From NCBI GenBank assembly GCA_019636345.1, contig JAHBXQ010000003.1, forward strand, positions 186,001 through 250,000: a DNA stretch of 64,000 bases, in the 5' to 3' direction. Shown one piece after another: positions 13,991 to 33,212 of the stretch (positions within the stretch are counted from its first letter, which is position 1; the number at the start of each line of letters is the position of its first letter). Origin of the DNA: Pirellulales bacterium. Lineage in GTDB: Bacteria; Planctomycetota; Planctomycetia; Pirellulales; Lacipirellulaceae. The notes beneath the pieces were generated by a model, which worked only from the letters and a program-made list of their open reading frames with translations, ran no database searches and was not told the origin of the DNA. A program made the position numbers and the translations under genes.

Positions 13991-14120
13991 GCTAAAGAAG
14001 AAGGGGGCAGGGGGGAAGAGGCGTAGATCGTTGTTCTCCCCCCTTCGGCCTTCTTCCCTCTCGCCTTGGTACGCCACTCGTGCGATCGCCGGTCACCGCT
14101 TCGAGCTTCGCGGAAGCGCC

Positions 14121-16154
14121 ATGTCCACCGACTTCTTTGAACGCCAGGACGCCGCGCGGCGGTCGACGACGTGGCTGGTGGTCATGTTCGTCTTGGGCGT
14201 GCTGGGGATCGTCGGCGGGACGATGGCCGTCGCCTGGGCGGTCCTTGAAGGGGCGAGCGGCTACAAGGCCGCCGGCGAAGGTCGCGTCCTCGACCTGCCC
14301 GAGATGTTCGGGCACTTGACCCCTGACGATCTCGTCGCGATGCTCGCCGCGGGGGGGGCATCGCTGGCGTTGATCGGCGGAGGCAGTCTCTACAAAGTCG
14401 CCCAACTCTCCGGCGGCGGTTCGGTCGTCGCCGAGGGGCTCGGCGGCAAGCGGGTCTATCCCGATTCGGCCGACGCCGTGGAGCGTCGGTTGCTGAACGT
14501 AGTCGAGGAGATGGCCCTCGCCTCGGGGGTCCCCGTGCCGCCGGTCTACATGCTTCAGACGGAATCGGGGATCAACGCCTTCGCCGCCGGCTACTCCCCC
14601 AGCGACGCGATCGTTGCCGTCACCCGCGGCGCGGCCGAGCAACTCTCGCGCGAGGAGCTGCAAGGGGTCGTCGCCCATGAGTTCAGCCACATCCTCAACG
14701 GCGACATGCGGCTCAACATCCGGCTGATCGGCGTGCTGCACGGCCTGCTGCTGTTGGGGCTCATCGGCCGGATCATGCTCCGGATGATCAGTCACTCGGG
14801 CCGAAGATCCAGCGATTCGAAGAGCGGAGGAGGCGTCGCGGTCGTGGCGCTGATCGGGCTGGCTCTGTTCGTCCTGGGGTATTTGGGAACGCTCATGGGG
14901 AGCCTCATCAAGGCGGCCGTTTCGCGGCAGCGCGAGTATCTGGCTGACGCCTCGGCCGTGCAGTTCACCCGCAATCCCGGCGGATTGGCCGGAGCGCTGA
15001 AGCGAATCGGGGCGCGGGCGATCGGCTCGCGAATTCAGGCCCCCAACGCGGCCGAGGCGAGCCACCTGTTTTTCGCCCAAGGGGTGTGGGAGGGACTCAC
15101 CTCGCTGACTGCGACCCACCCGCCGCTGGAAAAGCGAATCCTGGCGCTCGAGCCGCAATGGGACGGCAAGTTTCCCACGGCCGAGACCCGGCCTGCCGTC
15201 GAGCGAGAACTCGCGGGCGGAACCGATCCGCGACGACGCGGCGAGCAAGTGGCTGCGCTGGCCGCCGGCGCAGTCGCCGCTGCGGCGGCAGGAGCAACCA
15301 TGACCGACGCCGCCGAGGTCCCGTTGGCGGTGGTCAAGCGCGCGGCTGACCAAGTGGGGGATCCTCAGGAGCTCCACCGGGCCTACGCCGCGAGGCTGAT
15401 TGACGCGTTGCCGCCGCTGGTGCGCGACAGCGCCCGCGAGCCGTACGGCGCCCGGGCGGTGCTGTTCGGGCTGCTGCTCGACCGCGATCCCGGCGTTCGC
15501 GAAAAGCAACTCGCCACTCTTGCCGCCTACGCGACCAAGGACGTCACGGCGCTGACCGTCAAACTGTCGCCGCACCTGGACATGCTCGAGGCCCGCATGC
15601 GGCTGCCGCTGGTGGACATGTCGCTTCCCGCGTTGCGGGCCATGTCGCCGGAGCAGTACCGGACGTTCCGGCAATGCTTCGTCGAGTTGGTCAAGGCCGA
15701 CAACCGGTTGGGTCTGTTCGAGTGGGTGCTGCATCGCGTGCTGCTGCGCCACCTGCAGCCGCAGTTCGAGCATACGGCCCGGACGAAGGTCGCCTACTAC
15801 GGCCTGCAGAAGCTTGGGCGCGAGTGCTCGGTGCTGCTGTCGACGTTGGCCCACGCCGACAATCGTCTTGCCGAGGCCCCGGCGGCATTGGCCCGGGGCG
15901 CCGCGATGTTGTCCGGGGCGAGGGTGACGCTGCTCGACCCGGCCGAGTGCGGCCTGGAGCCGCTTCGCGGCGCGCTCGACGCGCTGGCTCGCGTGGCCCC
16001 CAAGCAGCGCCAGTCGCTGGTCGCCGCCTGCGCAGCGACGATCTGCGCCGATCACGAGGTGACCGTCGCCGAGGGAGAGCTCCTGCGCGGGGTGTGCGAC
16101 ATGCTCGATTGCCCCATGCCCCCGCTCCTGCCGGGGCAGCCGGTGGCGGCGTGA
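14121..16154 (+). CDS. Membrane M48 metalloprotease with C-terminal extension
   Basis: The 677-residue zinc peptidase is HtpX/Ste24-like. Two membrane segments precede the catalytic domain (about 18-40 and 72-90). The zinc site is H186-E-F-S-H190 in VVAHEFSHILNGD, with third ligand E272 in SRQREYLADASAVQF. Two further hydrophobic segments lie between (about 200-222 and 238-262). THPPLEKRI closes the peptidase core. Residues about 330-677 form an alanine-rich helical extension not found in HtpX, resembling planctomycete/proteobacterial M48 variants. It is adjacent to lemA and probably co-functions in envelope protein quality control. It starts at ATG 14121. Confidence 0.9.
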   Translation: MSTDFFERQDAARRSTTWLVVMFVLGVLGIVGGTMAVAWAVLEGASGYKAAGEGRVLDLPEMFGHLTPDDLVAMLAAGGASLALIGGGSLYKVAQLSGGGSVVAEGLGGKRVYPDSADAVERRLLNVVEEMALASGVPVPPVYMLQTESGINAFAAGYSPSDAIVAVTRGAAEQLSREELQGVVAHEFSHILNGDMRLNIRLIGVLHGLLLLGLIGRIMLRMISHSGRRSSDSKSGGGVAVVALIGLALFVLGYLGTLMGSLIKAAVSRQREYLADASAVQFTRNPGGLAGALKRIGARAIGSRIQAPNAAEASHLFFAQGVWEGLTSLTATHPPLEKRILALEPQWDGKFPTAETRPAVERELAGGTDPRRRGEQVAALAAGAVAAAAAGATMTDAAEVPLAVVKRAADQVGDPQELHRAYAARLIDALPPLVRDSAREPYGARAVLFGLLLDRDPGVREKQLATLAAYATKDVTALTVKLSPHLDMLEARMRLPLVDMSLPALRAMSPEQYRTFRQCFVELVKADNRLGLFEWVLHRVLLRHLQPQFEHTARTKVAYYGLQKLGRECSVLLSTLAHADNRLAEAPAALARGAAMLSGARVTLLDPAECGLEPLRGALDALARVAPKQRQSLVAACAATICADHEVTVAEGELLRGVCDMLDCPMPPLLPGQPVAA

Positions 16155-16298: not shown

Positions 16299-16354
16299 GC
16301 TCCCCAGGCGGACATTCGTCCGTTCCCGACTCCTGCAACGCTGAGGGGGAAACC

Positions 16355-16990
16355 ATGAACGGCCTCGTCGAACCGCGTTCGTCCGATCCGATCGCCAAGT
16401 TGCTCAATCACGAGTTGCGTCGGCTTCACGAACAGTGGTGGTGCTTCCTGCTGTTGGGCGCGCTGCTCGTCGCGTGCGGCACGATCGCGATCGTCTACCC
16501 GTTCATCTCGACCCTGGCGGCCGTGTCGGTCCTGGGGGGGCTGCTGTTGGTGAGCGGCGTGGCCACGGTCATCAGCTCGTTTTGGACCGGCCAATGGAGC
16601 GCTTTCTTGCTGCAGTTGCTGGTTGGCATTCTGTACGCGGTCGTGGGATTGGCGGTGATCGACAAGCCGCTGGCCACGGCGGGGGTGCTGACGCTGTTCA
16701 TCGGCACGTTCGCCATCGTCGTCGGCACAGTGCGCATCGTCGCCGCGCTCTCGATCAAGTATCCCCTGTGGGGTTGGTCGCTTCTGAACGGCGCCGTGAC
16801 CGCGCTGTTCGGCGTGCTGATCTATCGGCTGGTGGCCAAGGAGCCGGCCGCCGTACTGTGGATCATCGGTCTGGTGGTGGGGATCGAACTGCTCCTGAAC
16901 GGCTGGACCTGGGTCGCGCTCGGGCTGCAGTTGCGAAAGGTCGGCCCCTGCGTCGCCGACGAAGCCGCCGGCGGAACGAGAGTCGGCTAA
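16355..16990 (+). CDS. HdeD/DUF308 family membrane protein
   Basis: The 211-residue integral membrane protein has about six transmembrane helices: WWCFLLLGALLVACGTIAIVYP, LAAVSVLGGLLLVSGVATVIS, FLLQLLVGILYAVVGLAVI, AGVLTLFIGTFAIVVGTVRIVAAL, SLLNGAVTALFGVLIYRLV and AAVLWIIGLVVGIELLLNGWTWVAL (each abbreviated in extent). This tandem-hairpin layout is that of HdeD, linked to acid resistance in enterobacteria, but most DUF308 proteins are functionally unassigned. ATG 16355 is preceded by GAGGGGGAAACC. The upstream in-frame extension is a shadow of the M48 gene. An extended -10 promoter is visible upstream. Confidence 0.85.
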   Translation: MNGLVEPRSSDPIAKLLNHELRRLHEQWWCFLLLGALLVACGTIAIVYPFISTLAAVSVLGGLLLVSGVATVISSFWTGQWSAFLLQLLVGILYAVVGLAVIDKPLATAGVLTLFIGTFAIVVGTVRIVAALSIKYPLWGWSLLNGAVTALFGVLIYRLVAKEPAAVLWIIGLVVGIELLLNGWTWVALGLQLRKVGPCVADEAAGGTRVG

Positions 16991-17000
16991 GCCTTGCCGC

Positions 17001-17465
17001 GTGGATACCGCCTCGCAGAATTCCGCCCCGTTGGCGTTCCACTCCTTGCCCCCCTTGCCGACGATGCCCGCCGACCACGACGACGATCGCGACTTCCGGT
17101 GTCGCACTTGGCCGCGGAAGTTCGCCGACGCCGCGCGGGGGATCAAGATCGCCGTGCGCGGCGAGGCGAGCTACTTCGTCCACATGCTCGCCACGGCGAT
17201 CGTCGTGCTGGCCGGGGTGACGGCCCGGATTACGCTGTCGCGCTGGGCCGCGCTGGTGTTGTGCGTCGCGCTGGTGCTCGTGGCCGAAAGCCTGAACACG
17301 GCGATCGAACGACTCGCCCGCGCCGTGACCCGCGAGCAGGACGCCCGGGTCCGCGATGCGCTGGACATCGCCAGCGGTGCCGTGCTCTTGGCGGCGATCG
17401 GCGCCGCGGTTGCCGGGGCCCTGATTCTCGGGCCGCCGCTGGTGGCGATGCTCGAAAAACGGTGA
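17001..17465 (+). CDS. dgkA: Diacylglycerol kinase, prokaryotic DgkA family
   Basis: The 154-residue membrane kinase would phosphorylate diacylglycerol or undecaprenol. The DgkA signature AESLNTAIERLARAV (about 94-108) contains the catalytic/Mg-binding Glu and Asn. Three hydrophobic helices surround it (about 58-76, 80-96, 126-147). GTG 17001 gives a 40-residue polar leader. ATG 17064 (MPADHDDDRDF) is an alternative start and would match the usual 120-130 residue size better; neither has a clear Shine-Dalgarno site. It follows the HdeD-like gene by 10 nt, likely in one operon. Confidence 0.85.
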   Translation: MDTASQNSAPLAFHSLPPLPTMPADHDDDRDFRCRTWPRKFADAARGIKIAVRGEASYFVHMLATAIVVLAGVTARITLSRWAALVLCVALVLVAESLNTAIERLARAVTREQDARVRDALDIASGAVLLAAIGAAVAGALILGPPLVAMLEKR

Positions 17466-17601: not shown

Positions 17602-18762
17602 TCAATCGAGCCAGTCTTGCGCCTGGAGCCGCTCGGGGACGTAGACTTCGGTGACGTAGCTGATGTCGATGGTCATCAGGCCTTCGACTTCCACCTTGAA
17701 GTCGTTCTTGAGCATCCGCTGAATCTCGGCTTGCCAAGGCCGTTTCTTCTCGAACCAGGGGTAGTTGGCTATCTGTTTGGCCCGCTTTCGGTCATTTTCA
17801 TTCAAGCCGATGAGAGCCGCGTCAGGGAGCTTGTAGCGCTCGACGTCGATGCTTCGTAAACCCAGGTACTTGGCGTCGGGGATCGCCATTCGTTGGCTCT
17901 CAAAAGCGAGATTGATCGACCCCTGCTTGAGCACGCTGTAGATGTAGTACCCCCAGGGATCGTTATCGAGCACGCAGTACACCGGCAGGTTGAGTTCCGT
18001 GTTGAGTCGGTGCAGCAGTCTGCGAACGCCGCGCGGCGGCTGGCCGCCGCCGTGGGTCAGCAGGCAATGGTGCTTTTCCCAGAAACGATCCTCGTTGAAC
18101 CGCTGCCAGACGGTGTCCTTTTCGACATGCAATACGAACTTGGCGCCGCATTTCTTGCGATCCAATTCGATGATATTCGACTCGACGATCGACGGAATGC
18201 TGTAGCCGCCGGAACCCATGCGCGAACAATCAATAGTGTCCCCTTTGTCAACGAGCGTGATCGGCCCGACCATGCTGCCGGCCGCCTTGGCGTACAAATG
18301 CAGCTCTTCGCGAATGCTGCCGAGCAGGACTTCCAAATCCTCAATAATCGGGTCGCTGTCCGACTGATCTTCAAATGTGTTTTCCGTCGAGCCGGCGATG
18401 CGGTGTTTGAGCATGTAGTACATGCCCCGCAAGCTCGTCGTCTTGCCGGAGTCCAACAGCCGTTTGCATCCGCTGGCGACCAGCATCGTGCGCATGTACG
18501 CCTTGGCCTGCGACAGGTCGAACAGCTGCCGGCGGTTCTTGCCGGAACCCATCTCGATGATCCGCTTCCGCGGGCTGTAGTGGACGTTCGACAGCGTGCG
18601 GCTGGGGATGTCGACGTAGGGGTCCTTCTTCGCATCGGCGGCGCTGACCACCCGATCGGCGAGCCCCACGAGCGACCCCATCGTTTTTTTGTCCCGCGCC
18701 GACAAGGCGACGCGCGTCTTCGTAGCAGGAGCCCCGGCAGGGCGGCGGACTTTCTTGGCCAT
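17602..18762 (-). CDS. top6A: DNA topoisomerase VI subunit A (Spo11-like)
   Basis: The 386-residue subunit is the DNA-cleaving half of the type IIB topoisomerase and a homologue of Spo11. The winged-helix CAP region has TTSLRGMYYMLKH with tandem Tyr115/Tyr116, one of which is the expected 5'-phosphotyrosine nucleophile. The Toprim domain supplies E214 in LHVEKD and D266/D268 in CVLDNDPWGYYIY, both needed for Mg binding. GGGQPPRGVRRLLHRL is also family-conserved. It starts at ATG 18762, 45 nt after the top6B stop on the same strand. Common in archaea and plants, Topo VI is sporadic in bacteria. Both subunits appear complete, so an active A2B2 enzyme is likely. Confidence 0.94.
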   Translation of the reverse strand: MAKKVRRPAGAPATKTRVALSARDKKTMGSLVGLADRVVSAADAKKDPYVDIPSRTLSNVHYSPRKRIIEMGSGKNRRQLFDLSQAKAYMRTMLVASGCKRLLDSGKTTSLRGMYYMLKHRIAGSTENTFEDQSDSDPIIEDLEVLLGSIREELHLYAKAAGSMVGPITLVDKGDTIDCSRMGSGGYSIPSIVESNIIELDRKKCGAKFVLHVEKDTVWQRFNEDRFWEKHHCLLTHGGGQPPRGVRRLLHRLNTELNLPVYCVLDNDPWGYYIYSVLKQGSINLAFESQRMAIPDAKYLGLRSIDVERYKLPDAALIGLNENDRKRAKQIANYPWFEKKRPWQAEIQRMLKNDFKVEVEGLMTIDISYVTEVYVPERLQAQDWLD

Positions 18763-18785
18763 GGGATTTCGCAAGAGGCGTTTAG

Positions 18786-18806
18786 CCCCCGGTCATTGAC
18801 CGGGGG
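18786..18806. promoter_or_regulatory. Palindrome between top6B and top6A
   Basis: CCCCCGGTCA (18786-18795) and TGACCGGGGG (18797-18806) form a perfect 10-bp palindrome around a single base. It begins at the nucleotide next to the top6B stop codon and ends 23 nt before the top6A ATG. In mRNA it would fold into an 8-bp GC hairpin. It could tune subunit stoichiometry or mark an RNA processing site. Confidence 0.6.
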
Positions 18807-20936
18807 TCAAGGGGATGATTCTGACTCGACGACCGGCGTGCGCCGAATCGCCGCGGCGTGGTTCGCGGGGTCGACGATTAAGACGTTTTCGCCGTAGTCG
18901 ATTTCCTCGGCTTTGAGCTTCCGGCCGCGGTCGTCCATCTTCATGTCGGCGTCGGCGGTCACCTTCTTGGCGACCTTGAGCAGTTGGTCGTACAGTGCGT
19001 CCTGCTTGGCGCCGTTGATCTCGCTCACGGCGACCGACACCTCCTTGAGGTACCGCATGAACACCTCGCGGCGGTCGCTTTGCTGCTTCACCCGCAAGCG
19101 GCGGCGGAGGTACATTCCCAGCTTGCGGCCGACCGCCTGCAGGCCCAGTCGGATTTCCTTTTGGATCTCCGGATACCCGGCGACCGCTTCTTTCGACTCG
19201 CTGGTGAACGGGACCCACACGCTGGCCATGTGAACCATCAGCGTCACCGGGCCCTTGGGCAATCCGCCGCGCGACTGGCTCAGTCCGTAGCTGCGCCAGT
19301 TGGTCTGCATGACGGTCTGCGTGATCGCGCAGGCCGCCTGCTGGAACTGCAGCGGCACGCGATTGGCCAGCCGCAGCACCTCCATCGATTGCCCTTCGGC
19401 GACGTTCACGTTCTGCATCGCGGCGAACAGTTTCTCGCTCTCCTTCGGCTTCAGCTTGCCCGGGGCGCTGCGGGTGCCGAGCCCCGAGTTCTTGATGATC
19501 CGATCGGCCGCGTCGGAGCCCAGGCCGTTGAACGTATGGATGAGAAACTGCCGCACGGTGCGGGCGTCCGTCTCTTCGAGCAATTCCAGGAGCAAGTCCT
19601 TGGTGACGTTCTGCGTGGGCGCCGTGCCGCCGTATGCGAGCCCCACCTCGATGACGAACGGATTGCCGCGATAGACGGCCGGCGGGCGGGTCGCGGCGGC
19701 GTAGAACTCGCCCGGCACGACCTGATGCAGCCCCTTGAGGATCAGCTCCTCGCCGATCGGGCAGATGCAGTCGGTCGCCGGCGGGGCGATCTTCGTCCCT
19801 TGGATTGCGTGATACAGGGCGTCGGCCCCGGCGCGGTCGATCTTCTTGGCCGGCGTTCGGGGCGAGACTTTGGCCGTCGTGCAGATCTTTCGGGCGATCG
19901 ACGGCGAGACCCGCGAGAAGGTCGTCGTGAAGAACTGCGAGACCGTCGTCCCGTCCGCCTCGGACAGCATCGCGGCCAACCGGCCCAATTCGACCCCGTA
20001 CGGGTGGGGCAAGATCTCTTTCGGTTCGGGGGGGAGCTTATCGGCCGCTCGCACGTAGTCCCGCTGCGTGCCGTCGGGATCGAGGTAGTGGAGCGTCACG
20101 TGCGGATTGGCGATCGCGGTCTGGTGGAGATACTCGTCGACGCTCCCCCGGCCGCGAATGTATTTGGCCTCGAGCTCGATCGTGACCCGCGTGCCGTGCG
20201 GCTGATCGACCCATTCGATGCCGTGCTTGGCAATGTACTCGGCCCCGGCGGACCCGGGGGGGATGTCGACTCCTTCCCCTTTGCCGTTGAGGATTTTGGG
20301 TTCGTTGCGTTTCGTGTCGATCGCGATTTCGTAGTAGTGGGCCGGCTTCTTGGGGCTGATTCGCGAGATGATCTTCACCGGCTTGCCGGTCGTCTGCACG
20401 CCGTACATCCCCGCCGCGCTGATGCCGATCCCCTGCTGCCCGCGGCTTTGCCGCAGGCGATGGAACTTCGAACCGTACAGCAGCTTGCCGAAGATCAACG
20501 GAATTTGCTTCTTGAGGATCCCCGGGCCGTTGTCTTGGATGCCGACCTTGAAGCGGTCGGCGCCGGTCGTCTCGATGTGGACCCAGATCTCGGGGAGGAT
20601 GCCCGCCTCCTCGCAGGCGTCGAGCGAGTTGTCGACCGCCTCTTTGATCGTCGTGAGGAGCGCCTTGCGGGGGTTGTCGAATCCCAAGAGGTGCCGGTTC
20701 TTGGCGAAGAACTCGCTGACCGAGATGTCGCGCTGCTTGGCCGCCATCGATTGGGCGGTGGCGCGGCGCTTTCCCGCGGCGGGGGCCGCCTCGGCGACGT
20801 CGGTCTCGTCAGCCTTCGCGGGCGCACCCTCCTCGGGCGCGGTCGTCGCGACGGCGCGCTTGCGGACTTTCTTTTTGACCTTCTTGCGCGGACGGGTCGA
20901 GGGGTCGTTCTTGGTGACGCGTTTCTTGGTCGCCAA
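18807..20936 (-). CDS. top6B: DNA topoisomerase VI subunit B
   Basis: The 709-residue ATPase subunit belongs to the GHKL family. After a 65-residue Lys/Arg-rich tail come the Bergerat-fold motifs: [16 protein letters not shown] (N box, Mg-binding Asn/Glu), [10 protein letters not shown] (G1) and [20 protein letters not shown] (lid, G2). The TYPE IIB-typical helix-two-turn-helix insert and transducer follow, with [16 protein letters not shown] carrying the switch lysine. The C-terminus ([12 protein letters not shown]) is short. Archaeal B subunits are usually about 530-620 residues, so the basic N-terminal tail is an addition, perhaps for DNA binding. It precedes top6A in one operon. Confidence 0.94.
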
Positions 20937-21315
20937 CGGGCGGCTCCTGTGCTGATGCGATCGCGGTGATTTCGGACGGCGACCCGTCGAGAATGCGTCG
21001 CCCCCGCTCCGAGTCGAGCGGCCCGGGGCGTCAAGCTTTGCCGGAAGGGGCGATTATATCGATTGCGCCGGGGGTCTCTAGCCGCAATGGGGCCCGGGGA
21101 CCGCTACAAACGGTTCGGGCGTTACGGCTGGCAAACAAAAACTGATCGTCACCGCCGGACCTGTCCGACACCAGAAAACACGACCCGTTCCGTGGTCCGT
21201 CCCCCAGACGACGGGCTAGGTGCAAGTCTCGGAGAGACTTGTCGAGGTACGACCCACCGACGCGACTCGCCCCCCTCCCGCCGCGAGTCGCCCAGCGCAA
21301 GGAGGCGCTTTCCCG
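20937..21315. other. 379-nt divergent intergenic region
   Basis: This region separates top6B (minus) from the small secreted protein gene (plus) and must contain both promoters. It holds the hairpin at 21223-21241. The rest is GC-rich without clear hexamers, except AT-richer stretches near 21050-21060 and 21130-21145. No reading frame here is convincing. Confidence 0.5.
21223..21241 (+). promoter_or_regulatory. Leader hairpin upstream of the small secreted protein
   Basis: CAAGTCTC (21223-21230) and GAGACTTG (21234-21241) form a perfect 8-bp stem with a GGA triloop, 75 nt before ATG 21316. It is probably in the 5' untranslated leader. Its role is unknown. Confidence 0.4.
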
Positions 21316-22434: not shown

Positions 22435-25400
22435 TCATTCCATCGCTTCGCGAAACAATTGTTCTACAAGTTCGCGGGTGAGCCACTTCGCGCGGTCGAC
22501 CTCGGCGCACAATGCTGGGGCGGTGGGGTAGCCCATCAGATAGGCGAGCTTCTCGATCTCGCGTTCGTCGGCGGGGAACTCGTGCCGGCCGGCTGAGTTC
22601 ATCAGTCGGATGCGGGCCTCGACGCTCCGCATGAGCCGGTACTCGGCCTCGAGCGTCCGGGCCTGCTGCGAGTCGAGGCAGCCCGCCGCAGCCAATGCGC
22701 CCAGCGCGTCGAGCGTCCCCGTGACGCGCACCGCCGGCCGTGCGGGGCCGTGCTTCAGTTGCAGCATCTGCACCAGGAATTCGGCGTCGACCGTGCCGCC
22801 GGGACCTCGCTTTAGGTTTTGCGGCGAGGCGTCCTCCTGCAGTCGCAGGCGCATCTGCCAGATCTCGCGGGCGTCGTCGGGAGACCAGGGTCGGCAGTCG
22901 ATCGCCGCGGCGACGGCCAACTCGGCCCGCCTGCGCGCCGGGCCGGTCCCCAGGATGACGCGTGCCTTGAGCAGGGCTTGCCGTTCCCACAACTGCCCGC
23001 CGCCGGAGCGGAAGTACTCGACGAACGCATCGAGCGGCAACGCTAGGGCGCCGCTCTTCCCTGTGGGGCGCAGCCGGGGATCGATCTCGTACAGCCGTCC
23101 CTGGGGGCCGAAGTGATTGGTCCCCTTCATGATCCGTTGGGCGAGCTGACTGAAGAAGTGGTTGTTGCTGGTGGCCGAGGCGCGGCTCCGCCCGTTGGGC
23201 AGCGTGCGTCCCTCGGCCTCGTACAGGAACACCAAGTCGAGATCGCTGTGGTAGTTCGGCTCGCGGCCCCCCAATTTCCCCATGGCCAGGACCAGAAACT
23301 GGCAGGGTCGCCCCGCGTCTTCGGCCGTCGGCGCCCACGGCTCGGCCGGGTAGGCCGCCTCGTCGTCCCCGTCGGCCGCCGAACCGAGCGTCGGCTGCCC
23401 GTGCTTGTCGAGCAGCTTCGCGAGTTCCGCGTCGGCGATCTTCCGCAGGCACGCCTCGGCAATGTCGGAGAGCGCCGCGTGGGTCGCCCGGACGTCGTCC
23501 TTGCCGACGATGTCGCGCACCCCGACGCGCAGGTGCTGGGCGTTCTTGAAGCTGTGAAGGATGGGGTCGAGATCCTCCGCTCCGCGAGCCAATTCGGCCA
23601 GCGACGCTTCGAGCCGCTCGAGCTGCGGCAGCCGCTCCACCAGCAGGCTGTCCATCAGTTCGTCGATCATCCCCGGGTTGCTGGTGAGGATGCTCACCAA
23701 GTAGGGGCAGGCCGCGCACAGCGTCACGTACAGGTTGAGCGACGGGTGGTTGCGGCTGAACAGCTCCCACAGCGCCGCCTTGCCTCCCAGCGAGTCGCTC
23801 ACCCGGCTCAGCGTGACCAGCGTCCCGTCGGGGTCGGGAGTCGCGGCGATCGCCGCCAGCAGCCGCGGCGCGATCGCCGCGAGGAACAGCCGGCACCGCC
23901 GCGTGGACAGAAAGGGAATCCGCTCGTTGGCGAGCGACATGAGATTGTCGTACGCCGCCGGCACGTCGCGAAACGGATACCGCCCCAGCACGCGCGCGAT
24001 CGTCTCGGCGCCCGGGTCGGGATCGTTCACCAGATCGACCTCGGGGTCGGCCTCCGGGTCGCCGGCGAACGAGTCGTGCAACAGGTGGTTGAGAATCCGG
24101 CGATTCAGCTCCGTCCGTTCGGCGTACTCGCGGTCGAACGCTGCGGCGATCGCCTTGCCGTCCTCGCCTGCGTACCGCAACCGGCGAGCGAGCTTCACCG
24201 TCTCCAGCGCGCCGCCGGGAAGCGAGTGGGTCTGCAGGTCGTACATCATCTGCAGCCGATGCTCGACCCGTCGCAGGAAGGCGTAGTTGTCCTCGAGAAT
24301 CGTCCGCTCGCGGTGGGTGAGACAACCGGCCCGTTCGAGCCGTTCGATCGCTTCGAGCGTGTTGCCGGTCCGCAGGCTTGGTTCCGAGCCGCCCGTGACC
24401 AGTTGCAGGAATTGGATGACGAACTCGATATCGCGAATCCCCCCGCGGCCGGTCTTCACGTTGCTGGCCAGGTTGTCGGCGGCGTTGGCCTGCTTCTCGA
24501 TCCGGCGCCGCAGCGAGCGAATTCCCGCGATGTCCGCGAGGCTTAGGTAGCGGCGGTAGATCCACGGCTCGATCTCGTCGAGAAATCGGTGCCCCAACTC
24601 CACGTCCCCCGCGATCGGTCGAGCCTTGATGTAGGCTTGCCGTTCCCATGTGCGGCCCTGCGTGTCGTAGTACGTCAGGGCCTGCTCGACCGTGTGGCAC
24701 AGCGGGCCCTGCTTGCCGTGGGGGCGCAGCCGCATGTCGACGCGGTAGGCGAACCCCAACTCAGTCGTTTCGCTCAGGAGGCGAATCAGGTCGGTCGCGA
24801 TCCGGGTGGCGGTCTCAACGGCGTCGGCGACTCCCTCGGCGCCGTCGACCAGGAACACCAGATCGATGTCGCTGGAGTAGTTCAGTTCCAATCCGCCGAG
24901 CTTGCCCAGGGCGAGCACGACCAGATCGGGGAGCCGCTGGGGCGCCCCGCCGCGGGCCGCTTGCCGCGCCGCGAGCTTGCGGCGGGCGAAGTCGAGCGCC
25001 GCTTCGACGACCGCGTCTGCGACGTACGAAATCTGTCGAGCGACGGTCCCGATGTCGTGCCCCGCGATGATGTCGCCGTAGGCGATCCGCAGCGTCTCGC
25101 GCCGCTTGAACCGTCGCAGGGCGTGCATTACCTCGACTTCGCCGCTGAACTTGCGGACCTCGGCGACCAGCTCGTCGACCAACACGTTGCGCGCCACCGG
25201 GCTGCCGCCGGTCATCCGCAACAGGTCGTAACTCTCAGGATCGGTGCAGAGCAGATCGGAGAGGCTCTGGCTCGTGCTGAACAGCGTGAGCAGCTCGGAG
25301 AGCGCCTCGCGATCGCGCTCGAACAAGGCGGCGCTGGACAACAGGTTGCGGGTCGAGAGCAGGTAGCGCTCCAGATTGTTGAGCGCCATGTCGGGATCGG

Positions 25401-25587
25401 GAAGCCCCGGGGCCGCGGCGGCGAACTGCTCGCAGATCGTCCCCAGCAAATCGAGCGGCAGGCCCGCCGTCGCCAGCCGCAGCAAGTTGGCGTGGCCGGT
25501 GCGCGGATCGGCGACTCCCAGGGGAATGAGCCACTCGCTCGCCTCGGCCGGGGCGTCGAGCATCGTCCGCACGCGATCGATCTGCAT
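22435..25587 (-). CDS. glnE: Glutamine synthetase adenylyltransferase / deadenylase
   Basis: The 1,050-residue bifunctional GlnE switches glutamine synthetase by adding or removing AMP. Two nucleotidyltransferase domains are visible: an N-terminal one with GKLGG at 228-232 and D240/D242 (NYSSDIDLVF), and a C-terminal one near residue 769 (MGKLGGREPNYHSDLDLVFLY). Each is followed by a helical GlnD-PII-uridylyltransferase-like domain (GRGGIRDIEFVIQFLQL and GPGGTVDAEFLVQMLQL). Size matches the family (about 950-1,050). I chose ATG 25587 (MQIDRVRTML). PII (glnB, 1388-1714) is the expected regulator. It is last in the minus-strand block after miaB. Confidence 0.94.
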   Translation of the reverse strand: MQIDRVRTMLDAPAEASEWLIPLGVADPRTGHANLLRLATAGLPLDLLGTICEQFAAAAPGLPDPDMALNNLERYLLSTRNLLSSAALFERDREALSELLTLFSTSQSLSDLLCTDPESYDLLRMTGGSPVARNVLVDELVAEVRKFSGEVEVMHALRRFKRRETLRIAYGDIIAGHDIGTVARQISYVADAVVEAALDFARRKLAARQAARGGAPQRLPDLVVLALGKLGGLELNYSSDIDLVFLVDGAEGVADAVETATRIATDLIRLLSETTELGFAYRVDMRLRPHGKQGPLCHTVEQALTYYDTQGRTWERQAYIKARPIAGDVELGHRFLDEIEPWIYRRYLSLADIAGIRSLRRRIEKQANAADNLASNVKTGRGGIRDIEFVIQFLQLVTGGSEPSLRTGNTLEAIERLERAGCLTHRERTILEDNYAFLRRVEHRLQMMYDLQTHSLPGGALETVKLARRLRYAGEDGKAIAAAFDREYAERTELNRRILNHLLHDSFAGDPEADPEVDLVNDPDPGAETIARVLGRYPFRDVPAAYDNLMSLANERIPFLSTRRCRLFLAAIAPRLLAAIAATPDPDGTLVTLSRVSDSLGGKAALWELFSRNHPSLNLYVTLCAACPYLVSILTSNPGMIDELMDSLLVERLPQLERLEASLAELARGAEDLDPILHSFKNAQHLRVGVRDIVGKDDVRATHAALSDIAEACLRKIADAELAKLLDKHGQPTLGSAADGDDEAAYPAEPWAPTAEDAGRPCQFLVLAMGKLGGREPNYHSDLDLVFLYEAEGRTLPNGRSRASATSNNHFFSQLAQRIMKGTNHFGPQGRLYEIDPRLRPTGKSGALALPLDAFVEYFRSGGGQLWERQALLKARVILGTGPARRRAELAVAAAIDCRPWSPDDAREIWQMRLRLQEDASPQNLKRGPGGTVDAEFLVQMLQLKHGPARPAVRVTGTLDALGALAAAGCLDSQQARTLEAEYRLMRSVEARIRLMNSAGRHEFPADEREIEKLAYLMGYPTAPALCAEVDRAKWLTRELVEQLFREAME

Positions 25588-25873
25588 AGCGCGTCTGTAC
25601 CAGCGCGGAGCGCACGACTTCGCCGAATCGTCGCAACCGACGACCCGCCGACGCCCGCGCTCTCGCAAACCTTCGCCGCCTAGCTAGGGATTGCAGCCGG
25701 AAGGCAAGAACCGGCCCGCTCCGCCGCAGACCTGTGATTTCATTGTGCCTGCCAGGGGCGGGGAAATCAACTTGAAGCAACGGCATTCGCAGGCGGTTCA
25801 GTCGCTTGACCGCACATGACGCTCTTCAATAGCTATTGCGAGTCGGCCTGGAAAACATTGCCGAAGCCGCCGC

Positions 25874-27337
25874 TCACGCTAACAGCGAGAACACTTCCGG
25901 CCCGACTTCCTGCGTCACGACCTCGCCGAACAGCGTGTGGGCGTTCGCGTCGTACACGGTCACCGGCAGGAGTTGTCCGACTTGACGGCGGTTGCCGGTG
26001 AAGACGACGATCCGGTCGCACATGGTCCGGCCGACCAGTTGGTACGGCCCGTCGCCGCCGGCCTGAGGAACTCCCGGCGCGGGGAGCTCGCTGCCGACCG
26101 CGTCCGCTTTCGCGGCCGCCTTGCTCAGGCCCTCGACAAGCACCTCGACGTCGCGCCCCAGAAATCGCTGGTTGTCCGCTTCGGCGATTTCGTTTTGAAG
26201 CGCCAGCAGGTGATTGTTCCGACGCCGCTTCACCTCCTCGGGGACGTCGTCGGCGTACAACTCGGCGCCTTTCGTGCCGGGGCGCTCGCTGTACTTGAAG
26301 ATGAAGCTGTTCTTGAACCGGCACTCGCGCACCAACTCGACCGTTTGCTCGTAATCCTCGTCGGTCTCGCCGCTGAAGCCGACGATGAAGTCGCTCGTGA
26401 CCGCGGTCTCGGGCATCCACGTGCGGATCCGCTCGTGCATCTCGCGGTACTCTTCGACCGTGTACCCGCGCTTCATCCGCCGCAGCACGTCGTTCGAACC
26501 GCTTTGGGCCGGCACGTGCAGGTACTTGGCGATCTTCGGCAGGTCGCGCACCGCGGCCAACACGTCGTCGGTCATGTCCTTGGGGTAGTTCGTGACGAAC
26601 TTGATCCGATCGAGCCCGTCGATTTCGTGCAGCTCGGCCAACAGGTCGCTGAATCGGGTCGTCCGCTCCCCCTCGCGATAGCGGTAGCTGTTGACGGTCT
26701 GACCCAAGAGCGTGATCTCGCGGGCGCCCTCGCCGGCCAGTTGCCGGGCCTCGGCGACAATGTGCCGCGGCGGGCGGCTCTGCTCGGGCCCGCGGACGCT
26801 GGGGACGATGCAGTAGGTGCAGAACTTGTCGCACCCGATCTGGATTCGCACGTACGCCTGAAACGGCGTGGGACGCATCGTCGGGTCGCGCAGCGGGTCG
26901 AAGCTCTCATGGCTTCGCTCGACCGCGTCGCGGGAGCCCTCTTTCCGATCGAGACTCACCTCAAGCTGCCGCCCGGCCCCGGCGGCGACTTTCTCGATCA
27001 AATCGGGGACCTGATGCAATTGCCCCGGGCCGACGACGAGGTCGACGTACGGCGCCCGCGTGAAGACGGTGCGCTTGTGGTTCTGGGCCATGCAGCCGAT
27101 GACGCCGATGATCTTCTGCGGGTTCTGCAGCTTGGCGTTTTTGAGTCGACCCAGCGCGCTGTAGATCTTCTCCTCGGCATGCTCGCGGACGCTGCAGGTG
27201 TTGAACAGCACCGCGTCGGCGTCGAGCGCCGAGGAGGTCAATTCGTACCCCCGCTTGCGCAGGCTCGCCACGACGAGCTCGCTGTCGAGCACGTTCATCT
27301 GGCAGCCGACAGTTTCGATGTAGAGCTTCTTGGGCAT
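25874..27337 (-). CDS. miaB: tRNA-2-methylthio-N6-dimethylallyladenosine synthase
   Basis: The 487-residue radical SAM methylthiotransferase modifies i6A37 of tRNAs. The N-terminal UPF0004 domain carries the auxiliary cluster cysteines C12 (VGCQMN), C48 (FNTCSVRE) and C82 (GCMAQ). The radical SAM triad is C169-x3-C173-x2-C176 (GCDKFCTYCIVP). The TRAM-domain end includes ALQNEIAEADNQRFLGRDVEVLVEG. A 30-residue Ala/Gly-rich insert occurs near 430. I chose ATG 27337 (MPKKLYIETVG) because it opens the conserved domain. It lies between a small membrane protein gene and glnE, all minus strand. Confidence 0.94.
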   Translation of the reverse strand: MPKKLYIETVGCQMNVLDSELVVASLRKRGYELTSSALDADAVLFNTCSVREHAEEKIYSALGRLKNAKLQNPQKIIGVIGCMAQNHKRTVFTRAPYVDLVVGPGQLHQVPDLIEKVAAGAGRQLEVSLDRKEGSRDAVERSHESFDPLRDPTMRPTPFQAYVRIQIGCDKFCTYCIVPSVRGPEQSRPPRHIVAEARQLAGEGAREITLLGQTVNSYRYREGERTTRFSDLLAELHEIDGLDRIKFVTNYPKDMTDDVLAAVRDLPKIAKYLHVPAQSGSNDVLRRMKRGYTVEEYREMHERIRTWMPETAVTSDFIVGFSGETDEDYEQTVELVRECRFKNSFIFKYSERPGTKGAELYADDVPEEVKRRRNNHLLALQNEIAEADNQRFLGRDVEVLVEGLSKAAAKADAVGSELPAPGVPQAGGDGPYQLVGRTMCDRIVVFTGNRRQVGQLLPVTVYDANAHTLFGEVVTQEVGPEVFSLLA

Positions 27338-27466
27338 GCCGTCGAGGACGATGGGACTGGAGGACCGGGTGGACGAAGGAAAGAAGAATCGGGGCAGCCA
27401 GCACGCGACTTGGGTCAGGTTCGACGGTCCCGACGTCCCCTGGGCCCAGGCTCCCATGGACCCGCG

Positions 27467-30798: not shown

Positions 30799-33171
30799 CT
30801 ACGGCGTTCCCGCGGCATCGGGGGTCAGAGCGTACAGCACGGCGTTCAACGCCAGCCGGGCCGCGTCCTCGCGGGTGTAGCCGCGGCAGGCGAGGGCTTC
30901 GTGCTTTTCCAAAGCGCAACTGACGTCGTACGGCGAGAAGATCACCGCCAGCCGCCCGTCGAGGACGATCCCTTCGATCTCGGGCTCGACCTTCTCGACG
31001 CGGGTTCGCAGGGGGCGACCCGGCTGGGCCGCGGCCGGTTCGCGGCGGTTGACTTGGCGAATGTCGTACCCGCCGGCCGCCGGGCCGAATAGCGGATGAG
31101 TCACGGGGATCCGCTGCAGCTTGGCGTCGGGGAGCGCCAGCGCCATCTCGCGGCGGAACGCGGCGGCGAACTCCTTGCTCGCGCAAATCGAGTCGGCCAA
31201 CAGCGTGCCGCCGTTGGTCAGGAACTTGGCCAGCCCCTCGCGCTCCGCCTGACTGAAGCGGAAGTCCTGCCGGCCGTGCATGAACGCCAGGATGAACTGT
31301 CCCTCCTCCGCCAGGGCCGGGTCGCTGGCCCGCAGGTCGATCTCTTCGCTGCTGACGCTCAGTTGCAATTCGCCCTGAGCGGCGGTCCGCAGCAGATTGG
31401 CCAAAGCGCCGGGGGCGTCGTTGCATCCCCCCCCGTGCAGCAGTTTGGCGATGCGGATCATGCCGTAGCTCCCCAGCACCTCGCCGCTGTCCAGCTCGGC
31501 CAGCGCGAACGTTTCCTCCTTCCCCTTCGGCTCGCGATTGGTGGCGTAGGCCAGCACGTTCACGCCGATCGCCATTGCGTCGTCGATGCGCTGCTCGACC
31601 GACTCGGGAAGCGGCTCGCGATTGGCGCGGCCGGCCAGTTCCCAGTAGCACGACAGGTCGACCTCGCTGAACACCGCGCACGTGCGGCAACCGTACTCGA
31701 CCGCCCACAGCCGACCGACGTACGGCGATTCCGGCCGCACGAGCTGCTCGACCCGCCAGAGCGGATGCTCGGGGCCGACCCGTCGCAGGCGATACTCCGG
31801 CTCGGGAAAGACCTGCTCCATGAACTGCCGGAAGCCCGCGTCGAACGGCCCTCCGTCGGCGCAGCACGCCTCGGCGAACAGAAACCCGCCCCGATCGAGG
31901 TACTCGCGCGTCTTGGCGGCCATGCCGGCGAGTTCGGGCGCCTGGCTGCCGCTCACCAACAGGACGGGGGCTTGCAGCAGGTCCTCGACGCTCGCCTTGT
32001 CTCCCCGCAGCACTTGCCAAGTCAGGTTCAGCCCCCACAGGTCCTCGGCCAGCGACACGACGTTGGCGACGCCGCTGGGGTGACGATCCCAATCGGCGCC
32101 GGGGCCGTGCTCCAGTTTGCCCACGAGCACCGGCCACCGGCCCTTGCTCAGAAACAACAGGGCCATCGACGTGGCGATGTGGGGGTTGTTCTCCGAATGG
32201 CCCGATCCGACCCAGTAGTGGCCGAACGGGTCCTGCTGGCTGAGCAGAAACTCGGCGCCCTCGCGATACCAGTCATGCTCGCCGATGAACCGCCGCGACG
32301 TGAGCCGGCCGAACCGCTCAAGCCCGTAGAGATAGTAGTAGTGCCAGGCGTCGCGCGAGCCGGGGTTTTGCTGGACGGTGAGGTTCCGACCCATCCAGAT
32401 CAGGGCTCGCGACAACCAATCGTCCTTGGCGGGGGGGAGGCAGCAGTTGACCCGGTTGCCGTCGACCTTGGCGGCGCCGTCGGAGATTTGTCCCGTGCAG
32501 ATGACCATCGCGCCCACGCCGGCGCAAGTCATGCTGCCGGTGCCGGGCCAGTTTTCCTCGGCGTGATAGCCCCACGCGCCGTCGGGGCGCTGGCATTTGC
32601 GCCAGTACTGCTCGGCCAGTCGCCAAGTTTCGGGCTTTACCTTGGCGCCCGCGCGGGCCGCCTCGTACAGAGCCAGCACGGCGAACTGCGAATTGCTGTT
32701 GTCGCCGTTGAAGTCGCTGGGATAGGACCATGCCCCCGCATTGGGGCCCTGATTGATCTGGGTTGATTCAAGCCAGGCGACGTTGCGCTGGATAAGCGCC
32801 AAATCGCCGCGCTCGGCCTCGGCCAGCACCATCGTCTGCAGCGAGACGCTGTAGGTCTTCGTCGGCTGGATCGCGCGGAGGTAGGCGAGCGACTTCTGAA
32901 TATGCGGGTCGCTCGCCGGGACTCCCGAATTGAGCAGCGCCAACGTCACGAGTCCCGTGACGCCGCCGGGGTATTGCAGCATCTCGCTCCACGAGCCGTC
33001 GCGAGATTGCTCTTGGAGCAGGTAGGTCTTCCCCTGATCGATTGCCGTACGGACCGCCGCGGCGGTCAGAACGGGGTTTCGGTCGCGCTGAGCGGCGGCA
33101 GGGGACGCCCCGAGCCCGATCAAGACGATCGCCGCGGTTCCCTGCAGAATGCATCGCGCGCGTCCGAGCAT
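30799..33171 (-). CDS. Secreted prenyltransferase-repeat plus tandem DUF4159 protein
   Basis: The 790-residue protein starts at ATG 33171 with a signal peptide (LGRARCILQGTAAIVLIGLG). Residues about 40-370 carry helical QDGSW-type repeats (EQSRDGSWSE, CQRPDGAWGY, QDPFGHYWVG) of the squalene/prenyltransferase alpha-toroid. Residues about 400-560 and 615-775 look like two copies of DUF4159: both have a hydrophobic strand, EYLDRGGFLFAE or KFLTNGGTLLAD, and HPLW or HPLF. Function is unknown. A promoter with 17-nt spacing lies at 33213-33241. TTG 33195 is a possible alternative start but would shift the signal peptide. Confidence 0.85.
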   Translation of the reverse strand: MLGRARCILQGTAAIVLIGLGASPAAAQRDRNPVLTAAAVRTAIDQGKTYLLQEQSRDGSWSEMLQYPGGVTGLVTLALLNSGVPASDPHIQKSLAYLRAIQPTKTYSVSLQTMVLAEAERGDLALIQRNVAWLESTQINQGPNAGAWSYPSDFNGDNSNSQFAVLALYEAARAGAKVKPETWRLAEQYWRKCQRPDGAWGYHAEENWPGTGSMTCAGVGAMVICTGQISDGAAKVDGNRVNCCLPPAKDDWLSRALIWMGRNLTVQQNPGSRDAWHYYYLYGLERFGRLTSRRFIGEHDWYREGAEFLLSQQDPFGHYWVGSGHSENNPHIATSMALLFLSKGRWPVLVGKLEHGPGADWDRHPSGVANVVSLAEDLWGLNLTWQVLRGDKASVEDLLQAPVLLVSGSQAPELAGMAAKTREYLDRGGFLFAEACCADGGPFDAGFRQFMEQVFPEPEYRLRRVGPEHPLWRVEQLVRPESPYVGRLWAVEYGCRTCAVFSEVDLSCYWELAGRANREPLPESVEQRIDDAMAIGVNVLAYATNREPKGKEETFALAELDSGEVLGSYGMIRIAKLLHGGGCNDAPGALANLLRTAAQGELQLSVSSEEIDLRASDPALAEEGQFILAFMHGRQDFRFSQAEREGLAKFLTNGGTLLADSICASKEFAAAFRREMALALPDAKLQRIPVTHPLFGPAAGGYDIRQVNRREPAAAQPGRPLRTRVEKVEPEIEGIVLDGRLAVIFSPYDVSCALEKHEALACRGYTREDAARLALNAVLYALTPDAAGTP

Positions 33172-33212
33172 GGTCCTGTTCCCGGCGAGGTGCAAGTGGT
33201 CCCGTCGGCTTT

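Follow-up and report, generated by a model that had tools for sequence, protein, structure and literature searches.

A complete bacterial DNA topoisomerase VI (topo VI) operon is found at positions 17602-20936 of a 64,000 nt stretch (the window) of contig JAHBXQ010000003.1, from the assembly GCA_019636345.1 of a Pirellulales bacterium (contig positions 186,001 to 250,000). Profile searches and predicted structures indicate that its B subunit, Top6B, has a second helix-two-turn-helix (H2TH) domain within the transducer. The operon probably encodes a working type IIB topoisomerase, an enzyme of archaeal type, serving as a second type II enzyme beside DNA gyrase and decatenating and relaxing DNA as topoisomerase IV (topo IV) does in most bacteria. 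The family of the proteins, their intact motifs, the identity and distribution of the additional domain and the failure to find topo IV were all established by computation.

Searches of Pfam and NCBIfam, the databases used for domain calls, and of the PDB identified both proteins as topo VI, with no near rival family. Top6A matched TOP6A-Spo11_Toprim (1.5e-58) and TP6A_N (6e-15), whilst Top6B matched Topo-VIb_trans (1.2e-51) and HATPase_c (3e-10) in Pfam and PRK04184 (4.6e-202) in NCBIfam, all above the curated cut-offs; the best PDB sequences were Saccharolobus shibatae Top6A (1e-69) and Methanosarcina mazei Top6B (1.8e-144). An AlphaFold2 model of Top6B, made with 49 sequences (mean predicted local distance difference test score (pLDDT) 73.3, predicted template modelling score 0.67), found the Top6B structures of M. 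mazei (Z 33.1) and S. shibatae (Z 31.1) in a fold search, with MutL and GyrB at 18.6 or less. The operon had been recognised in a sequence-only reading of the same DNA, and profiles and alignments agree in placing the proteins in the topo VI family with their catalytic residues aligned.

The insert in the Top6B transducer

Compared with Top6B proteins of known structure, the window sequence matches up to around residue 442 and resumes at around residue 515, the stretch between having no counterpart; this insert was absent from the sequence-only reading. On the evidence of profiles, predicted structure and fold search, residues ~443-516 (19389..19610; all operon features are on the minus strand) are a second H2TH domain (H2TH-2), additional to the canonical one (H2TH-1, residues ~305-395, 19752..20024) identified by PDB alignment, model and profile. 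When an insert profile was compared by hhalign with 100-residue segments of Top6B, skipping those overlapping the insert, that covering H2TH-1 (residues 300-399) matched with 98.6% probability (E-value 9.7e-16), an earlier alignment with H2TH-1 having given 98.3%. Segments lying partly over H2TH-1 gave 79%, 97.9% and 97.8%, and the nine that missed it were all below 0.5%. A profile of 49 insert sequences, comprising 48 of 80 relative loci and the window, ranked the H2TH of S. shibatae Top6B first in the PDB (3.7e-7), with M. mazei Top6B at 4.8e-4 and, lower, Fpg (0.011) and uS13 (0.013).

The predicted models show the four helices of an H2TH fold, at residues 446-455, 461-468, 474-484 and 497-509, with nearly the same spacing as those of H2TH-1 (317-326, 332-339, 345-354 and 368-380). 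Folded alone, the insert (mean pLDDT 81.9) matched residues 235-315 of M. mazei Top6B with a Z of 14.4 and a root mean square deviation of 2.1 Å over 81 aligned residues; the H2TH of that protein has been placed at residues 235-311 (PMC13040014). Next were other Top6Bs, down to Z 10.2, and then MutM/Fpg from Z 9.6, and Foldseek likewise ranked Top6Bs first. Counting against this, a Z of 14.4 is within reach of mostly helical models with no clear Foldseek match; since such models attain these values by arrangement alone, the structural match is support rather than proof, and the weight of the identification is carried by the sequence profiles and the ranking. As far as sequence can indicate, H2TH-2 is a diverged copy, with the H2TH domains of Top6B as its closest relatives known.

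An origin from some other H2TH protein, such as Fpg/MutM, NFACT, uS13 or sIHF, is improbable. Fpg and uS13 are among the profile matches, and NFACT_N is the sole name returned by Pfam for the insert alone, where all matches fall below cut-off; however, H2TH-1 alone also gives NFACT_N first, hence this name does not discriminate, and Top6B leads by profile (3.7e-7 against 0.011 for Fpg), by Foldseek and by Z (14.4 against 9.6). A weak Pfam match of residues 465-512 to Ribosomal_S13 is attributable to H2TH resemblance, and the insert was rejected as a ribosomal protein. It is very improbable indeed that a helical bundle came to look like an H2TH through convergence only, for although middling structural scores to many folds are common amongst short helical domains, the match is obtained from sequence profiles alone and the spacing of the four helices is near-identical to that of H2TH-1.

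The alignment of the insert extends over 82 columns in the 49 sequences without a gap or indel, and ten residues are invariant: L449, D457, R459, R462, Q463, F464, F469, G471, I480 and R489. Within the order, the insert was called, at a limit of 90 bits, in 133 of 134 Top6B frames, the exception being cut by a contig end. Three order samples gave 30/30, 80/80 and 19/20; in a further 36 chosen phylum loci, 23 Top6B frames included four with the insert, all from the order, and none of the 19 from outside it. These samples overlap, such that the 133 insert-bearing frames represent 119 distinct sequences; H2TH-1 was detected in the same 133. In a scan of 392 phylum genomes, with at most 14 candidates scored in each, the 11 topo VI-positive genomes of the order all had the insert (122-136 bits), and no score from the rest of the phylum exceeded 53.1 bits. 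The 13 H2TH-2 rows of a domain tree form one group apart from H2TH-1, which suggests, from sequence, that H2TH-2 arose once, no later than the base of the sampled order. The 74 columns of this tree are too few to settle where H2TH-2 joins, and the long S. shibatae branch drawn beside the group may be an artefact.

We take the sampled order, as a firm inference from its named relatives, to be the Pirellulales. Those nearest to the window are Lacipirellula limnantheis (81%), Adhaeretor mobilis (79%) and Bythopirellula polymerisocia (79%), Lacipirellula being a member of the Lacipirellulaceae in the Pirellulales, and the Top6B cores of three genomes of the window's own family (G483, G503 and G475) match those of Adhaeretor, Bythopirellula and Aeoliella exactly.

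Topo VI and topo IV in the order and the phylum

In the window's own genome, rated 95.9% complete, we found one GyrA/ParC-family gene and one GyrB-family gene, the former having two GyrA-boxes (QRRGGKG at 578 of the open frame) and hence being a gyrase; no topo IV or other second type IIA enzyme was found there. Top6B is present in 136 of the 146 genomes of the order, and in 118 of the 127 good ones, so the description of bacterial topo VI as sporadic in the sequence-only reading does not apply to this order. Across the phylum, 189 of 392 genomes have Top6A, as do 120 of the 217 good ones. A single GyrA/ParC match was obtained in 132 of the 136 Top6B-positive genomes, two in three of them and none in one (G441). 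A GyrB match is missing from nine, probably as a matter of assembly.

Seven of the ten genomes of the order without Top6B belong to one family (f2), are 96-99% complete and also lack Top6A. Each has two GyrA/ParC genes and two GyrB/ParE genes, equivalent to a topo IV-like pair in addition to gyrase. The second A gene encodes 810-855 aa and in all seven cases lacks the GyrA-box, which was present in each of 34 GyrAs examined, hand-picked from 34 of the 146 order genomes; the second B gene lies on the same fetched stretch in six of the seven, and on another contig in G274. On a GyrA tree the topo VI label requires at least three changes, two of which are forced by well-supported branches. Together with the one gyrase of the window's genome and these changes, the pair in relatives without topo VI makes it most likely that topo VI replaces topo IV as the decatenase of the order in vivo. 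Topo VI has been termed a preferential decatenase (PMC8837201), and PMC11302465 refers to an unpublished complementation by the M. mazei enzyme. The less clear cases are G422, in which both top6 genes are missing, GyrA/ParC is matched once and a second GyrB-family gene (669 aa) lies close to the end of its contig, and G423 (73% complete), which has Top6A, one GyrA/ParC match and no GyrB match.

Several observations weigh against replacement. G415 has neither top6 gene and just one GyrA/ParC and one GyrB match, whilst there are two GyrA/ParC matches in the Top6B-positive genomes G420, G470 and G525, and two GyrB matches in G496, G521 and G525, also Top6B-positive. For G420 the GyrA/ParC match listed is a fragment at the end of a contig, and the best in G470 and G525 are much weaker than usual. 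Furthermore, the seven topo VI-less genomes form only two groups on the GyrA tree, with the topo VI-positive G513 nested in one of them, and GyrA itself could have been transferred.

The exchange extends to the phylum, where the good genomes that have topo VI divide into 110 with one GyrA/ParC gene and 10 with two or more, the corresponding numbers without topo VI being 35 and 62 (Fisher p ~9e-19, ignoring kinship). Amongst the good genomes of individual families, the exchange is clean in f2, f19 and f35 and mostly so in f13 and f96, no difference is seen in f8, f21, f37 and f78, and f63 has the reverse pattern, a further point against. A single type IIA A-subunit without topo VI is found in 4/4 genomes of f28 and 15/20 of f47. 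Given these mixed patterns, the exchange is a strong tendency rather than a law. Also telling against replacement, 35 of 97 good topo VI-less genomes have a single type IIA A-subunit, which implies that some planctomycetes can manage with gyrase alone, and two or more are present in 10 of 120 good topo VI-positive genomes. These two figures favour the alternative in which topo VI is an accessory enzyme of repair, recombination or stress, with gyrase alone decatenating as it does in bacteria that have no other type II enzyme; such a role is unlikely, given the presence of Top6B in 136 of 146 order genomes and of a second type IIA pair in all seven near-complete f2 genomes lacking topo VI. Topo IV, ParCE, has the same proposed decatenase role as topo VI in the Pirellulales, and differs in its type IIA architecture.

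The NCBIfam model NF003333 (531 bits, cut-off 465), passed by this Top6A, bears the name 'DNA topoisomerase IV subunit A'. As Top6A is a type IIB protein, annotation of this kind may mislead counts of topo IV.

The operon, its motifs and its surroundings

Both frames are without stop codons, and top6B precedes top6A with a gap of 32 nt, or 44 nt if the ATG start of top6A is taken. The top6B gene (18807..20936) encodes 709 aa from a TTG start, 7 nt upstream of which the sequence AGGAG (20944..20948) was read as a ribosome-binding-like site. The top6A gene (17602..18774) encodes 390 aa if read from its TTG; the likelier start is the ATG at 18762, which gives 386 aa. The Top6A product has winged-helix TP6A_N and Toprim domains, and alignment with PDB sequences locates, in TTG numbering, the tandem tyrosines 119/120 (18415..18420), the Toprim glutamate E218 (18121..18123) and the Toprim DxD, D270-N-D272 (17959..17967). 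The second tyrosine, 120, aligns with the catalytic one, which we take to be Y103 of Methanocaldococcus jannaschii. Counted from the ATG, these residues become 115/116, 214 and 266/268, as numbered in the sequence-only reading, which had also correctly listed GHKL motifs and a switch lysine in the B subunit.

The GHKL ATPase region of Top6B was placed by profile and alignment at approximately residues 67-300 (20037..20738), with its first motif from residue 98, DNGPG at 135, GQQGIG at 166 and an RGRG loop at 261-264. The last of these is the equivalent of the KGRR loop, and WRSY (547-550) that of WKxY. After the insert, the transducer and long stalk helix occupy residues 517-641 (19014..19388) according to profile, alignment and model. 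The switch lysine is K582 (19191..19193), aligning with K435 of M. mazei (PMC13040014). Top6B thus has the GHKL, H2TH and transducer parts of a topo VI B subunit.

The N-terminal extension rich in lysine and arginine, which the same reading had put forward as unusual, does exist: residues 1-58 (20763..20936) contain 18 K/R and 7 D/E, and are predicted to be disordered. It is usually basic, being net positive in 65 of 78 relatives measured from 80 loci, yet its weak conservation across relatives and pLDDT below 50 rule it out as the key feature.

The phylogeny proposed in the sequence-only reading was carried out in part, as a tree of Top6A by a quick method with 37 planctomycete and two archaeal rows. 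Top6As of the phylum fall into two distant kinds, with ~52-59% and 31-35% identity to that of the window, which form separate clades, one next to M. jannaschii and the other next to S. shibatae. The archaeal joins have high SH-aLRT (Shimodaira-Hasegawa-like approximate likelihood ratio test) support, but came with a program warning of long branches meeting. Two bacterial topo VI clusters described in PMC11302465 are consistent with this tree. The adjacency of the two genes is not universal, as five genomes (G205, G327, G333, G381 and G167; loci L036, L042, L038, L041 and L035) have no Top6B frame within ~4.5 kb of Top6A; in these, Top6B is on another contig or ~0.7 Mb away.

By Pfam, the neighbouring genes encode an M48 peptidase (14031-16154, plus strand), a DUF308 repeat protein (16349-16990, plus), a prokaryotic diacylglycerol kinase (17001-17465, plus), a GlnE adenylyltransferase (22435-25668, minus) and a UPF0004/radical SAM/TRAM protein (25874-27457, minus), the last presumably MiaB/RimO-like from its domain make-up. 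A DUF4159 protein (30799-33195, minus) has a weak squalene-hopene cyclase-like stretch under cut-off. Pfam found no mobile-element families in the ten neighbouring frames scanned, and no sign of a virus or mobile-element origin of the operon was seen, though this was little tested. One contig filed as viral, L223 (IMGVR_UViG_3300037657_000197), has a Top6B 54% identical over the best segment; the contig may be bacterial and misfiled.

A possible role for the second H2TH domain

Comparison with characterised enzymes sets the insert apart. M. mazei topo VI (PDB 2q2e, 9o8p and 9o0g) shares the domain order of GHKL, H2TH, transducer and stalk, the catalytic residues and 43-44% identity in Top6B (Z 31.7-33.1 over 471-485 residues), but has no second H2TH in the transducer; conversely, the C-terminal Ig-like domain described in M. 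mazei (PMC13040014) has no Pfam match in the window Top6B. S. shibatae topo VI (2zbk, 1mu5 and 1z59) has the same B core (Z 29.6-31.1, 29-31% identity) without the insert. Topo VIII, in which the B and A parts are fused in one chain, was rejected as an identification, A and B being two separate genes here; topo VIII is known from plasmids, both free and integrated (PMC11302465). The Spo11/topo VIB-like complex, the B-like subunit of which is described as lacking an H2TH (PMC11302465), was likewise rejected, the window Top6B having two. The closest comparison is with the topo VI of Pirellula staleyi, also of the Pirellulales and from a family reported to lack topo IV, for which Allen & Maxwell (2024; PMC11302465) describe an extra "unique alpha-helical bundle" at the transducer. 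Set side by side by description, this bundle is very likely the same architecture as H2TH-2, although the available text of that paper does not name it as an H2TH.

We infer both the decatenase role in vivo and any function of H2TH-2. Topo VI would presumably assemble as A2B2 beside one DNA gyrase, which would wrap and negatively supercoil DNA, leaving decatenation and relaxation to topo VI. The ATP gate would capture a DNA crossing, of which one duplex, the gate (G) segment, would be bent and cut by the Top6A tyrosines and the other, the transported (T) segment, passed through. In topo VI this strand passage depends on ATP and the cut leaves 2-nt overhangs. H2TH-1 probably holds the bent G-segment by its arms, as happens in M. 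mazei, where the H2TH contacts DNA through R263, K268 and K308 (PMC13040014, PMC5922973). Mutation of these contacts greatly impairs strand passage, largely uncoupling it from ATPase activity, and a 70 bp duplex is then no longer cleaved or subject to nucleotide-dependent bending; the KGRR loop is the sensor of the DNA crossing (PMC5922973). By alignment, the three contact positions are T, R and K in H2TH-1, two of them basic. H2TH-2 sits in a transducer hairpin, which is short in other planctomycetes, and would most likely make contact with the T-segment after its capture, or with the transducer of the partner, and couple closure of the ATP gate with strand passage. This proposal comes from two positions: in the PDB alignment the insert stops ~18 residues short of the position matching M. 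mazei G387, which faces the partner across the dyad (PMC13040014), and the P. staleyi bundle was modelled as protruding into the central cavity (PMC11302465).

Two points detract from such a role. The contact positions are I, G and N in H2TH-2, none being basic, which weakens the case for simple DNA binding, and the cavity location is carried over from the published P. staleyi model. From its sequence, H2TH-2 retains the fold with an altered surface and basic residues of its own. A competing explanation, which stands at a little under even chances, is that H2TH-2 braces the two transducers structurally, or forms a dimer contact between them, and leaves DNA untouched. The non-basic contact positions and the proximity of the insert to the dyad-facing G387 equivalent favour this, whereas the invariance of R459, R462 and R489 in the 49 sequences, and the protrusion of the P. 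staleyi bundle into the cavity, tell against it. A more elaborate version of T-segment contact, which we consider doubtful, is that the pair of H2TH-2 domains in the cavity holds or measures the T-segment whilst H2TH-1 bends the G-segment arms from outside, and that a topo VI tuned in this way for decatenation allowed the ancestor of the order to drop topo IV.

Topo VI in planctomycetes including the Pirellulales, the lack of topo IV in the families examined, the extra bundle and the idea that topo VI compensates for topo IV are already in print (PMC11302465); that idea is here checked on many more genomes. No report of a second H2TH in Top6B was found in the open-licence literature, as searched by titles, abstract openings and term counts. 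As far as this search shows, the recognition of the bundle as a second H2TH, its distribution throughout and, in this sample, limited to the order, and the test of topo IV exchange within the order and across the phylum are new.

The role of topo VI in bacteria is a question raised in the discussion of PMC11302465. With most of the order having gyrase and topo VI, and a few relatives gyrase and topo IV, this role becomes testable. Recognition of the extra bundle as an H2TH gives a specific hypothesis for how type IIB enzymes may sense DNA crossings, and a Top6B with two such domains provides a natural domain-addition variant for comparison with that of M. mazei.

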